Assembly: GCA_945929875.1 (NCBI GenBank)
Contig: CAMEOO010000009.1
Location: 1-36,356, forward strand
DNA: 36,356 nucleotides
Direction of reading: 5' to 3'
Source of the DNA: an uncultured Caryophanales bacterium
GTDB lineage: Bacteria; Bacillota_I; Bacilli_A; RFN20; CAG-449
The notes below the pieces were generated by a model. The model did no database searches and had not been told where the DNA came from. It saw nothing but the letters and a program-made list of their open reading frames with translations. The position numbers and the translations under genes were made by a program. Below are positions 5,420 to 16,675 of this stretch, piece by piece. How positions within the stretch are numbered: position 1 is the stretch's first letter; each line of letters starts with the position of its first letter.

Positions 5420-5446
5420 TTAGCACTCTAGTGTTGACTTTGCTAA
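5420..5446 (+). promoter_or_regulatory. CIRCE-like HrcA operator at the htpG promoter
   Basis: The left arm TTAGCACTC (5420-5428) matches the CIRCE consensus exactly. The spacer is exactly 9 nt. The right arm CTTTGCTAA (5438-5446) matches GAGTGCTAA at 6 of 9 positions. It overlaps the -35 box. Repression by HrcA is inferred from the motif. Confidence 0.65.
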
Positions 5447-5503: not shown

Positions 5504-7432
5504 ATGGCTTCTAATGTCGAAACCAAAGAATTTAAAACTGAATCAAAAAGACTATTAGACTTAATGATTCATTCTATTTATACAAATAAAGAAATATTTT
5601 TAAGAGAATTAATTTCAAATGCAAGCGATGCGATCGATAAATATCACTATTTATCCTTATCTGATGAAAGACTAGATAAAGGTAAAGAATTTGAAATAAG
5701 AATTACCCCAGATTCAAAAGAAAGAACAATATCTATTGAGGATAATGGTATTGGGATGACTTATGATGAGATCAATAATAATCTTGGTACTATCGCTTCT
5801 TCTGGTTCAGCGGAATTTATTAAGAAAATGCAACAAGCTCAAGAAGAAAATAAAGAAATTGACATCATTGGTCAATTTGGTGTTGGCTTTTATTCTTCTT
5901 TCATGGTAGCAAAAAATGTAGTTGTGGAAACTAAATCGCCTTTTAGTGATAAAGCTTATCGTTTTACAAGTACTGGAGAAGATAGTTATACCATTGAAGA
6001 AATTGATAAAGAAGAAAATGGCACAAAGATTACTTTATATTTAAGAGATGACTCTGAAGAAGATAATTACAGCGAGTTCTTAGAAACTTATGAAATTGAA
6101 TCTTTAGTGAAAAAATATTCAGACTATATCCGTTATCCTATTAAGATGAAAGTCACTACTTCAGTTAATGATGTCGATGAAGAAGGAAAAGAAATCGAAG
6201 ATAAATATCACGATGTAGTAGAAGATAAGACATTAAACTCTATGCTTCCTTTATGGAAAAGAAATAAAAATGAAGTTACTACTGAAGAATTAAATGAATT
6301 CTATAAGAGTAAATTCCACGATTCGGAAGATCCTCTTATTGCAACCTTTGTTAATGTAGAAGGAAATATTTCTTATAATGCATTGTTATTTATTCCTAAA
6401 AAAGCACCTTATGATCTATATTCAGAAAAATATGAAAAAGGTCTTCAATTATATACAAAAGGCGTCTTTATCATGGAGAAATGTAAAGATTTAATTCCTG
6501 ATTATTTAAAGTTTGTTAAAGGATTAGTTGATTCTTCTGATCTATCTTTAAATATTTCAAGAGAAATCCTTCAACAAAATAGCGAATTAAAGAAAATTGC
6601 TACTTCGGTAGAAAAGAAGATAGTTAAAGAACTTGAATCTTTAAAAGAAAATGATTTTGAAAAATATCAAGAATTCTTTAAAACTTATGGATCTCACATT
6701 AAATGGGGAATCTATGAAAACTATGGAATGAAGAAAGACCTTCTACAAGATTTATTAATTTATAATTCCATAAATCAAGATAAAATGATTAGCTTAAAAG
6801 AATATAAAGAGCAAATGAAAGAAGGTCAAAAAGCAATCTATTACGCTTCTGGTAAAGATAAAGCAGCAATCATCAATCTTCCTCAAATGGATGCGATGAA
6901 GAAACATGGATATGATGTTTTAATTCTTACTGATGACATCGATGAATTTACTTTAACTATTTTACATGATTATGATAAAGTTGAATTTAAATCAATAACC
7001 GATGAAACATTAGATTTAACTAGTGAAGAAGAAAAGAGCAAAGTTGAAGAACTTAAGAAAGAACATGAATCTTTATTAAATCGTATAAAGGAAGCATTAA
7101 ATGGTAAAGTAGATGATGTAAGACTATCTACTCGTTTAGTTGATTCTCCTGTGTGTCTTGCTTCTTCTGAAGGCTTATCATTTGAAATGGAAAAAGTATT
7201 AAATAATATGCCTAATTCTGAAAATGTAAAAGCGGGAAGAATACTAGAATTAAATCCTAATCACGATTTATTAAAAGCTATTAATAAAGTATATGAAGAT
7301 GATCCAAGCGTAGTTGATAAATATGCAGAACTATTATTTGATCAAGCTTTATTAATTGAAGGACTACCTCTTGAAAATCCTTCTGAATTCTCTAAGAATA
7401 TGTGTGATTTGATGATTAGATCCGCAAAATAA
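5504..7432 (+). CDS. htpG: Chaperone HtpG (Hsp90 family)
   Basis: A cytosolic ATP-dependent chaperone that works as a dimer. The N-terminal GHKL ATPase domain has the magnesium/ATP motif SNASDAIDK (near residues 36-44), DNGIGMT, and the lid motif GQFGVGFYSSF. The middle domain carries the conserved arginine in NISREILQQN. A C-terminal dimerisation domain completes 642 residues, close to the family norm. AAAAGGAGG at 5487-5495 fixes ATG 5504. It appears monocistronic, from a heat-shock type promoter (CIRCE-like element at 5420-5446) to a strong hairpin at 7444-7473. In Bacillus subtilis htpG is not CIRCE-controlled, so control here would differ. Confidence 0.97.
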   Translation: MASNVETKEFKTESKRLLDLMIHSIYTNKEIFLRELISNASDAIDKYHYLSLSDERLDKGKEFEIRITPDSKERTISIEDNGIGMTYDEINNNLGTIASSGSAEFIKKMQQAQEENKEIDIIGQFGVGFYSSFMVAKNVVVETKSPFSDKAYRFTSTGEDSYTIEEIDKEENGTKITLYLRDDSEEDNYSEFLETYEIESLVKKYSDYIRYPIKMKVTTSVNDVDEEGKEIEDKYHDVVEDKTLNSMLPLWKRNKNEVTTEELNEFYKSKFHDSEDPLIATFVNVEGNISYNALLFIPKKAPYDLYSEKYEKGLQLYTKGVFIMEKCKDLIPDYLKFVKGLVDSSDLSLNISREILQQNSELKKIATSVEKKIVKELESLKENDFEKYQEFFKTYGSHIKWGIYENYGMKKDLLQDLLIYNSINQDKMISLKEYKEQMKEGQKAIYYASGKDKAAIINLPQMDAMKKHGYDVLILTDDIDEFTLTILHDYDKVEFKSITDETLDLTSEEEKSKVEELKKEHESLLNRIKEALNGKVDDVRLSTRLVDSPVCLASSEGLSFEMEKVLNNMPNSENVKAGRILELNPNHDLLKAINKVYEDDPSVVDKYAELLFDQALLIEGLPLENPSEFSKNMCDLMIRSAK

Positions 7433-11621: not shown

Positions 11622-13640
11622 ATGCTTGAAAAGTTTTCTAGTGGCGCTCAAAGGATCATTTCTCTAGCGGAAGCTCTCGCCTTTGAATTTTCTCATCAAA
11701 GCGTCGGAAGTGAACATTTACTATTAAGTTTTTTAAAATGTAAAGATAATTTGCTATCAAAAGAACTAGGAAAATATGGAATTGATTATTTAAGTTTAAG
11801 AGATAGAATTCAAAATCTTTATCAAGAAGACGATAGCGGCAACCTTTATGTTCAATATACATTTGAATTAAAAGAAATACTTACCGATTCGATGAAGTTT
11901 GCTGATAAATATAACGAACCGCTCATCAGCGTCGATTCTTTAGCTATTAGTTTACTATCAAGTAAAAATGTAGCCTATGAATTATTAACTAAAGAAAAAG
12001 TAAATATTTCTTCAGTAATTAAGTCGATTAATAATTCAAAAAAAAGAAAATCAGAATTATCAACTATTCAAGATTTACATTTGCTAGGTTTTAATAATAA
12101 AGATCCTCTTATTGGTAGAGATAGTGAACTTTTTCAATTAATTAACGCATTGAGTAGAAGAAATAAACCTAACGCCATTTTAATTGGTGAACCAGGAGTA
12201 GGGAAAAGTGCAATTGTTGAAGAATTAGCAAAAAGATTAATTGAAAACAAGGTTCCTTCTTTAAAAGGGAAGACTATTTATGAGTTAGATATTGCTTCTA
12301 CAGTTTCTGGAACTAAATATCGAGGAGAATTTGAAGAAAAAATCAAAAAGATTATCAAAAAGGTTCAAGAAGATGGGAATGCAATACTATTTATCGATGA
12401 AATTCACACTATCGTTAAAGCAGGCGGCGCGGAAGGAGCCATCGATGCTTCCAATATTTTAAAACCATATTTGTCTAGAGGGGAGATTCAAATCATTGGC
12501 GCTACTACAGAAGAAGAATTCAATTTAACTTTCGACAAAGATAAAGCTTTAAAGAGGAGATTTCAACTTATTAGGGTAGAAGAGACCTCTTTAGAAGAGA
12601 CTCTAGATATATTAAAAAAAATCAAGCCCATATATGAGAAATATTATAAGATAAAAATTGATGATTATCTTTTACAAGAAATAGTTGACGTTTCTAAAAA
12701 GTATCTTTTAAATCAGAAATTCCCAGATAAAGCAATCGATATTTTAGATAACTCTTGCGTGATAAGTAAAGACCATTTAAAGGTAGAAGATATTTATTAC
12801 ACTTTAGAAAAATACTATAAAGTAGTGACTAATTATCAAAGGATTAATACTTTAAAAAAGATGCTAGAAGAAGAATTGATTGGTCAACAACAAGTTATCG
12901 ATGAAATTGTAAATGAGTTTACCATGATTGAAAAATCTTATGTGGATAATAATAAGCCTTTAGGCGTATTCCTTTTTAATGGCCCTTCTGGATGTGGTAA
13001 AACTCTATGCTCAAACATTATTTCTAAATGCTATTTTTCTTCTTTGCACACTGTTACCTTAAACATGAGTGTCTATAGAGATATCAATGGTTTAAGTAGG
13101 CTTATAAACTCTTCTTCAAACAACTATCTTGAATATATATCTCCTTTAGTAAAAACTTTAAATAATTGCCCTAATTCTTTAATTATTCTGGATGATTTTG
13201 ATAAAGTAACTAATGAGATAAAAGACTTCTTCTTAGATGTGTTTGACAAAGGATTTTTCTATGATAACCGCGGGAATTATATTAATTGTACGAATTCGAT
13301 ATTTATTTTAAATTCTAATTATTCTGAAACTAGCTATAACGATTTTAAAAATAATTTATCTAATTCTAACTCTCAATATGTTGATTTAGGAAAGAAATAT
13401 GGAGAAAGCTTTCTTTCAAGAATCACTAGAGTAATACAGTTTAACGAACTTAAAGAAAATAATATTAAATTGATTATGGGGAAGTATTTAAAAGAAAAAG
13501 GATTAGAATTTGAAACTGCGACTCTCGATGAAGCATTTAATTTGAGTTCTATAAACGAATATCGAAAAAGCGGAGCTAGACTAGGGTATAAAAATATTAA
13601 GAAAAAAATATTTCAAAAAGAGAAGATAAAAAATAATTAA
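11622..13640 (+). CDS. clpC: ClpC-like AAA+ unfoldase, shortened and with a divergent second ATPase domain
   Basis: The N-terminal Clp repeat domain (about 1-145) and first AAA domain (Walker A GEPGVGKS at about 189-196, pore loop GTKYRGEFEEK, Walker B ILFIDEIH) look normal. The ClpC middle domain is absent. The second AAA domain keeps Walker A GPSGCGKT (about 454-461), an arginine in FLSRI and GAR for sensor 2, but Walker B is ILDDFD with Asp for the catalytic Glu, the GYVG pore loop is missing, and no VGF/IGF ClpP-docking loop is seen. At 672 residues it is about 140 shorter than ClpC. ctsR, mcsA and mcsB are not adjacent. It may work without ClpP or MecA-type adaptors. Confidence 0.85.
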   Translation: MLEKFSSGAQRIISLAEALAFEFSHQSVGSEHLLLSFLKCKDNLLSKELGKYGIDYLSLRDRIQNLYQEDDSGNLYVQYTFELKEILTDSMKFADKYNEPLISVDSLAISLLSSKNVAYELLTKEKVNISSVIKSINNSKKRKSELSTIQDLHLLGFNNKDPLIGRDSELFQLINALSRRNKPNAILIGEPGVGKSAIVEELAKRLIENKVPSLKGKTIYELDIASTVSGTKYRGEFEEKIKKIIKKVQEDGNAILFIDEIHTIVKAGGAEGAIDASNILKPYLSRGEIQIIGATTEEEFNLTFDKDKALKRRFQLIRVEETSLEETLDILKKIKPIYEKYYKIKIDDYLLQEIVDVSKKYLLNQKFPDKAIDILDNSCVISKDHLKVEDIYYTLEKYYKVVTNYQRINTLKKMLEEELIGQQQVIDEIVNEFTMIEKSYVDNNKPLGVFLFNGPSGCGKTLCSNIISKCYFSSLHTVTLNMSVYRDINGLSRLINSSSNNYLEYISPLVKTLNNCPNSLIILDDFDKVTNEIKDFFLDVFDKGFFYDNRGNYINCTNSIFILNSNYSETSYNDFKNNLSNSNSQYVDLGKKYGESFLSRITRVIQFNELKENNIKLIMGKYLKEKGLEFETATLDEAFNLSSINEYRKSGARLGYKNIKKKIFQKEKIKNN

Positions 13641-15820: not shown

Positions 15821-15837
15821 TAAAATGGGTGGAAGAA

Positions 15838-16314
15838 ATGAATTTGAAAGAATATAGAATTTCATTAGGAATAACAATTAAAGAAGCTTCAAATGCTACA
15901 GGTGTAGCATTAAGAACATACAATAGGTATGAACATGATGATAATTATGGAGATCCTTTAAAAAGAGCAAGTATTTTAAGTATTTTAAAGGAAAAATATG
16001 AAGTTACTGAAGAAAAAGGATTACTGACTATTGAATTAATAAAAGAACATGTGACTGATATTTTAAACAAATACAAAGAGAAAATTGATTTTTGTTATTT
16101 ATTTGGAAGCTATTCAAAAGGATATGCTAAGGAAAATAGTGATGTTGATTTATGTGTTTCTACTACATTGACTGGGTTAAATTTCATAGGTTTAATAGAA
16201 GAACTTCGTCAATCTTTACGTAAAAGAATTGATTTGATTAGATTATCTGATTTAAAGAATAATATTGAACTTTTAAATGAAATAATGAAGGATGGAATTA
16301 AGATTTATGGATAA
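15838..16314 (+). CDS. mntA: HTH-MntA fusion: nucleotidyltransferase antitoxin (type VII)
   Basis: Residues about 1-60 look like a helix-turn-helix (ITIKEASNATGVALRTYNRYE). The C-terminal part is a minimal nucleotidyltransferase with the exact GSX10DXD motif: GSYSKGYAKENSDVD, preceded by FCYLF. MntA enzymes neutralise the HEPN toxin HepT by adding AMP units to a tyrosine. Here a DNA-binding domain is fused on, so one protein could both modify the toxin and repress the operon. ATG 15838 with GGGTGG fits better than GTG 15829, and the leader would be only about 10 nt. It overlaps hepT by 8 nt. Confidence 0.85.
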   Translation: MNLKEYRISLGITIKEASNATGVALRTYNRYEHDDNYGDPLKRASILSILKEKYEVTEEKGLLTIELIKEHVTDILNKYKEKIDFCYLFGSYSKGYAKENSDVDLCVSTTLTGLNFIGLIEELRQSLRKRIDLIRLSDLKNNIELLNEIMKDGIKIYG

Positions 16315-16675
16315 CAAGAAAAATGATAAATATTATGTAGAAAAAATCTTGGAAAATGTTAATTTCATAATCAAATATACGAAAAATATATCATATGAAG
16401 AATATATTAATGACGAATTATTGATAGATGCTTCTATGTTTAGACTGATACAAATTGCAGAAAATATAAAGGGACTATCTGAAGATTATAAGAAAACTCA
16501 TGCGTCTATTCCTTGGGGATTAATATTAGGTTTTAGAAATGGGATAGTGCATGATTATGGTAAAACAGATTATTCGATAGTATATGAAATAATAAGTGAT
16601 GATATACATAAATTAAAGAATGAATTGGAAAATGATGAGTATTATGAGCCATTACTTTTAGATGAAGAAGGATAG
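16307..16675 (+). CDS. hepT: HepT-like HEPN toxin (DUF86)
   Basis: An all-helical HEPN protein of 122 residues, expected to be an RNase that halts growth when free. It has the full RX4HXY signature (RNGIVHDY near residue 80), in which Arg and His are catalytic and Tyr is the site that MntA adenylylates. DASMFRLIQIAENIK is the typical first DUF86 helix. ATG 16307 overlaps the mntA stop in ATGGATAA, giving translational coupling; the ATG at 16292 has poor spacing. All key residues are present, so the pair looks intact although the genes around it are decayed. Confidence 0.87.
   Translation: MDNKKNDKYYVEKILENVNFIIKYTKNISYEEYINDELLIDASMFRLIQIAENIKGLSEDYKKTHASIPWGLILGFRNGIVHDYGKTDYSIVYEIISDDIHKLKNELENDEYYEPLLLDEEG

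Follow-up and report, generated by a model that had tools for sequence, protein, structure and literature searches.

A ClpC-type unfoldase with a canonical first ring and an eroded second ring, with an altered ClpP in the same genome

Can a ClpC-type unfoldase still serve ClpP when its second AAA+ ring (D2) has lost the canonical pore loop and docking tripeptide? The question arises from a gene in the window, a 36,356-nucleotide stretch of DNA from an uncultured Caryophanales bacterium whose genome is 1.5 Mb and 96% complete. The first-pass annotation, made from the sequence, had described a normal N domain and first ring (D1), no middle (M) domain, an altered D2, and a length of 672 residues, and had inferred either that the protein no longer feeds ClpP or that its second ring is mainly structural. 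We found that the open reading frame (11622-13640, + strand) starts with ATG and is intact. Pfam matched Clp_N (residues 16-65), AAA (186-315), AAA_lid_9 (323-400), and AAA_2 (445-600) in the 672-aa product; together with the motif alignment, this confirmed the length, the N domain, and D1. The features are as follows, with residue numbers in parentheses.

11622-13640, + strand: gene for a ClpC-type, M-domain-less double-AAA+ unfoldase, 672 aa (from Pfam, profiles, and the AF2 model)
11622-12056, + strand: N domain (1-145; Clp_N, with helices at 7-142 in the AF2 model)
12084-12815, + strand: D1 AAA+ domain and lid (155-398), fully canonical, motifs kept in 39/39 relatives
12186-12209, + strand: D1 Walker A GEPGVGKS (189-196; motif alignment)
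12309-12326, + strand: D1 pore loop GTKYRG (230-235), identical in 39/39 relatives
12387-12407, + strand: D1 Walker B LFIDEIH (256-262; motif alignment)
12828-13637, + strand: D2 AAA+ domain (403-672), eroded, in frame (alignment; fold kept in the AF2 model)
12981-13004, + strand: D2 Walker A GPSGCGKT (454-461), intact (motif alignment)
13101-13142, + strand: D2 pore-1 loop LINSSSNNYLEYIS (494-507), GYVG lost, Tyr502 (13125-13127) kept
13182-13205, + strand: D2 Walker B IILDDFDK (521-528), catalytic Glu replaced by Asp525
13317-13385, + strand: ClpP-docking (P-)loop region (566-588), shortened, no xG[FYL]; Phe575 at 13344-13346
13410-13427, + strand: D2 arginine-finger motif FLSRIT (597-602, R600), present
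13572-13580, + strand: D2 sensor-2 GAR (651-653), present

Both Pfam and the AF2 model give the ClpC layout, an N domain followed by two AAA+ modules. The M domain is absent: the D1 lid ends near residue 398, and D2 follows directly at about residue 403. In a PDB sequence search, the best matches were the ClpC proteins of Staphylococcus aureus and Bacillus subtilis. The AF2 model, built from an 11-row alignment, has a mean pLDDT of 80.5, and its D2 fold is retained and well predicted. Over D1-D2, the model matched ClpA best (6w20_A, Z 30.8) and also Mtb ClpC1 and S. aureus ClpC; the Bacilli ClpC structures matched were 9gi1, 9rai, and 7abr. The best NCBIfam match was the ClpA profile TIGR02639, at 408.1 bits below its cut-off of 993.15, and the ClpB profile TIGR03346 also fell short (402.1 bits versus 1232.1).

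The gene lies downstream of htpG and dus-lysS, with rpsF-ssb just beyond it. The arrangement dus-lysS-clpC-rpsF-ssb, in which a single gene separates lysS from clpC, is also found in two other genomes (G031 and G090). As the first-pass annotation had noted, ctsR, mcsA, and mcsB are not beside it. Because dus-lysS precede the gene, as in the B. subtilis order dus-lysS-ctsR-mcsA-mcsB-clpC, the locus resembles the clpC position with ctsR-mcsAB lost. No CtsR-like site was found in the window. Elsewhere in the window, a CIRCE-like inverted repeat (5420-5446, + strand; 3 mismatches, 0.02 expected by chance) precedes htpG (5504-7432), which suggests that this Hsp90 gene is under HrcA control. A nucleotidyltransferase-like (Polbeta) open reading frame at 15829-16675 (+ strand) is overlapped by a 127-aa open reading frame, and the pair could be a candidate two-gene MNT/HEPN-type system.

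We compared the protein with 39 relatives, 28 from the 279 genomes of its order (match E <1e-80) and 11 from a sample of its class. Relatives of the window's genome in public assemblies are "uncultured Bacilli bacterium Lapin-005" (L042) and "Erysipelotrichaceae bacterium SIG219" (L043). The Walker A motif, KYR pore loop, Walker B motif, and arginine motifs of D1 hold in 39/39 relatives, and ALKRRF is also present in the canonical D1 of the window protein. None of the 39 has an M domain, and its loss therefore predates the D2 changes. Relatives with a canonical D2 also lack it, and its absence therefore gives no account of those changes; the annotation was right that the domain is absent but not in tying this to D2. 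The M domain is also missing in most Clostridia relatives. Those at loci L047-L051, from Clostridia MAGs, are about 720-750 aa long, most with an IGF-type loop.

D2 is where the window protein departs from the canonical form. Its pore stretch reads NSSSNNYLE in place of GSPPGYVG. GYVG is indeed gone, as claimed, but the pore tyrosine probably remains as Y502, with "NNYLE" aligned against "PGYVG." The reported Walker B ending in DD held up, and slow ATP hydrolysis could be retained through Asp525. We sought an [AVILM]G[FYL] tripeptide between sensor 1 and the arginine finger of this D2 and found none. The annotation's statement that a VGF/IGF-type tripeptide is missing thus stands, except that one loop phenylalanine (F575) remains; a Phe lies 7-9 residues past sensor 1 in 14/14 members of the window's family (f1). 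Loop residues 569-586 have pLDDT values of <50. We rejected a hidden IGF loop: although F575 is conserved, the accompanying Gly has been lost, and F575 may match an older upstream loop Phe (f8 "xMFHK") instead of the IGF Phe. No D2 motif (GSPPGYVGFE, LDEVEK, and a KIGY/NMGF loop) is missing from relatives at 41-45% overall identity, and the D2 changes are therefore losses on the window's branch.

These losses extend beyond the window protein. D2 is canonical in 15 of the 39 relatives (f3 without G031, f6, f8, and seven f20 genomes), which combine a GYVG-type pore loop with an M/I/L/V-G-F/Y docking tripeptide. It is eroded in the other 24. Within the order, a tree built from the N domain and D1 only placed two D2 changes, one in the f1+g35+g33 clade (support 94/91) and one in G031. 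When the class sample was added, four changes were counted, of which well supported branches require only two; the f25 branch is long and uncertain in position, and its D2 loss is counted as probable only. Perhaps, then, D2 erosion arose in three to four separate events.

The extent of loss differs among lineages. Every member of the f1/g35/g33 clade has altered pore-loop glycines and an altered docking tripeptide. In genus g1, 6/7 members subsequently lost the Walker B Glu as well, and in G001, G003, and G005 the Walker A motif, arginine finger, or sensor 2 is gone to a varying degree. Groups g3, g4, and g35 keep the Walker B Glu, and their D2 Walker A and B motifs are intact or nearly so; D2 may therefore still hydrolyze ATP there. 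Genus g214 (G568 = L098, G603 = L104) has lost the D2 pore and ATPase motifs and has kept an [ML]GF docking loop together with ClpP Leu115; ClpX was not found in either genome. In G031 (L028/L092), an independent case, the clpC open reading frame is 593 aa, the D1 motifs are intact, and the end of D2 is missing; ClpP was not found in this genome.

Mean identity within genus g1 was 70% for D1 and 32% for D2, compared with 76% and 71% within f8. The D2/D1 branch-length ratio was 4.2x in g1, 3.1x in g4, 4.7x in g35, and 1.8x in g3, against 1.2-1.5x in the canonical groups. For the most similar g3 and g35 pairs, the D2 dN/dS was about 0.03-0.06, showing that D2 is constrained by purifying selection there; dS in g1 is near saturation, and g1 dN/dS ratios were not relied on. 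D2 is open in every eroded f1 and g35 copy except those cut by a contig end. We therefore rejected a pseudogene for g3 and g35 on dN/dS and open frames.

Gene content ties the unfoldase to ClpP. With true ClpP defined as a match of at least 217 bits with no internal stop, 25 of the 279 order genomes have one. All 25 carry a clpC-type gene, and conversely ClpP is present in 25 of the 28 genomes with that gene (Fisher p ~1e-32, with ancestry ignored and the genomes mostly fragmented MAGs). ClpP was not detected in G005 (94% complete), where the absence may be an assembly gap, or in G031 and G076 (61% complete), whose D2 is wrecked, so that they are not clean ClpP-less cases. A single ClpP was found in the window's genome (L069:512-1102, - strand). 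The family's ClpP looks orthologous by position, with neighbors resembling pgk and tpiA in G000, G006, and G022. Two genomes have a second, divergent ClpP with a changed N terminus (L080 in G013 and L084 in G017), and in several f4 genomes two ClpP-like genes lie side by side, in some cases with an internal stop.

No ClpX (TIGR00382) scored above the cut-off among the 41 genomes of relatives, and ClpX was not found in 9/11 class-sample genomes with a clpC-type gene. MecA was found in 0/41 genomes; the MecA search did match in the B. subtilis and Lactococcus lactis controls. The search of the organism's own genome that the first-pass annotation had proposed gave one ClpP, ClpB, and no MecA; its only ClpABC-type proteins are the window protein and a separate 860-aa ClpB. 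At profile sensitivity, a hidden ClpX or other partner was rejected: the AAA_2 matches in this genome are ClpB, the window protein, and weak matches to other AAA+ proteins, one of them DnaX. With ClpP confined to genomes that have a clpC-type gene, ClpX not found, and ClpB the only other Clp ATPase, the claim that the protein no longer feeds ClpP is weakened.

The ClpP of this family is itself altered. Among the ClpPs aligned, residue 115 (B. subtilis numbering) is Tyr in 13/13 main family proteins and Leu in 19/19 other main ClpPs, a table without the f20 ClpPs of G373 and G462. Residue 113 is Lys or Arg in 7/13; in ClpP-acyldepsipeptide structures, residues 113 and 115 line the docking pocket. 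Pocket residue 93 and the axial hairpin are likewise changed. Ser98 and His123 of the triad are kept, and the third member is changed (D172N) in 8/13 main family ClpPs, including that of the window's genome. No link between D172N and Walker B loss was seen: g4 has Asn172 and an intact Walker B. In S. aureus, the ClpP axial hairpin contacts ClpC (PMC12521514), and mutation of the hydrophobic patch of Mtb ClpP2 abolished chaperone-dependent degradation (PMC4416901). Change of the pocket in the same family is no less compatible with a remodeled dock than with a lost one.

Taken together, these data favor, with a probability of roughly 55%, an unfoldase that would be the sole partner of ClpP and be driven mainly by D1, with D2 a structural ring docking through a remodeled interface. 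The window gene would be a positional descendant of Bacilli clpC in a gut-bacterial lineage where ClpX and MecA were not found, and the hexamer probably still works with ClpP, the roles of its two rings having changed. D1, with all its motifs complete, would act as the motor, gripping substrate and pulling it at the expense of ATP. D2, ordinarily the stronger motor, would be mainly nucleotide binding and structural, stabilizing the hexamer and carrying the shortened docking loop, and this loop may bind the changed ClpP pocket (L115Y, K113 or R113, and the altered hairpin). The second inference of the first-pass annotation, a mainly structural second ring, is supported: D1 is kept in 39/39 relatives, while D2 has shed ATPase and pore motifs and, in most eroded groups, evolves 3-5x faster. 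In genus g214, a D2 stripped of ATPase motifs seems to retain its dock, and this favors demotion of D2 over a parting of ATPase and ClpP as the common theme; f1 alone is not decisive. Only tentatively do we extend this to a repeated inversion, three to four times, in Bacilli where the ClpC-type protein is the only ClpP unfoldase, with D1 the sole motor, D2 an inactive spacer or adaptor ring, and the f1 dock rebuilt without the near-universal xG[FL].

Other readings account for part of the evidence. In the main rival reading, the ATPase and ClpP would have parted, leaving a ClpP-independent, D1-driven remodeling chaperone and a ClpP that is a lone peptidase or fading. The family's lack of an xG[FYL] loop and its changed ClpP residues 113, 115, and 93, with a triad that is often S-H-N, would agree with this; the changes in ClpP could just as well reflect decay once docking had gone. 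G005, G031, and G076 keep the ATPase with no ClpP detected. We nevertheless consider it unlikely: within the order ClpP was never found without a clpC-type gene, a lone ClpP would have no unfoldase, the triad Ser and His are fully kept, the loop Phe is conserved, and two of the three ClpP-less genomes have a wrecked D2.

A D2 that is still an active motor with divergent motifs, Tyr502 gripping substrate and Asp525 or a neighbor supporting hydrolysis, seems improbable. The window protein does have the Walker A motif, arginine finger, sensor-2 Arg, and Tyr502 that this would need, its D2 fold is well predicted, and g3, g4, and g35 keep the Walker B Glu; against this stand the loss of that Glu in most of g1, the variable loss of Walker A, arginine finger, or sensor 2 in three genomes, and a D2 that evolves about four times faster than D1. 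It is very improbable that the gene is simply decaying, D2 being the first part to go. In its favor, clpC and clpP are both gone from sister genus g2 and from most of the order, and the end of D2 is missing in G031. However, every family member has an intact open reading frame unless a contig end cuts it, the D1 motifs are kept, and D2 dN/dS is well below 1 in the close g3 and g35 pairs. Decay in close relatives, which the first-pass annotation had raised against its own reading, is thus not of the ordinary kind, as D2 stays in frame and under purifying selection in g3 and g35.

Stepwise loss of the D2 pore loop, docking loop, and ATPase residues beside an intact D1 is a natural experiment on the roles of the two rings, and the lineage series bears on the capacity of a machine driven by D1 to serve ClpP. 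The series further provides matched natural variants of the unfoldase and of ClpP at the surface where the two meet, the target site of acyldepsipeptide antibiotics. Among open-licence papers, we found none on a ClpC with a degenerate D2.

The window protein shares with the ClpC of S. aureus and B. subtilis the N domain, D1, the D2 fold and their order, and the position dus-lysS-clpC. It differs in lacking the M domain and in its eroded D2 motifs, and MecA was not found in the 41 genomes. The P-loop tip of S. aureus ClpC is AGF at 671-673 (PMC12521514), and the window protein has no AGF-type tip. Escherichia coli ClpA also lacks an M domain and gives the best structural match and best NCBIfam profile, but it carries an IGL docking loop, which the window protein does not; in ClpA, D2 is held to do most of the motor work, with D1 assisting (PMC9663308). 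ClpB/Hsp104 likewise has two AAA+ rings and no ClpP-docking tripeptide, but the window protein has no middle domain, and its nearest relatives are ClpC-type proteins with a docking loop. Listeria ClpP1 carries Asn172 in its triad, and the S-H-N state favors inactive heptamers (PMC5361862); ClpP1 accompanies a normal ClpP2, however, whereas one ClpP was found in the window's genome. The M-domain-less ClpC-type proteins of f20 Bacilli and Clostridia have the same N-D1-D2 layout at 31-42% identity, and most of them, unlike the window protein, have a canonical D2 with a VGF/IGF loop.
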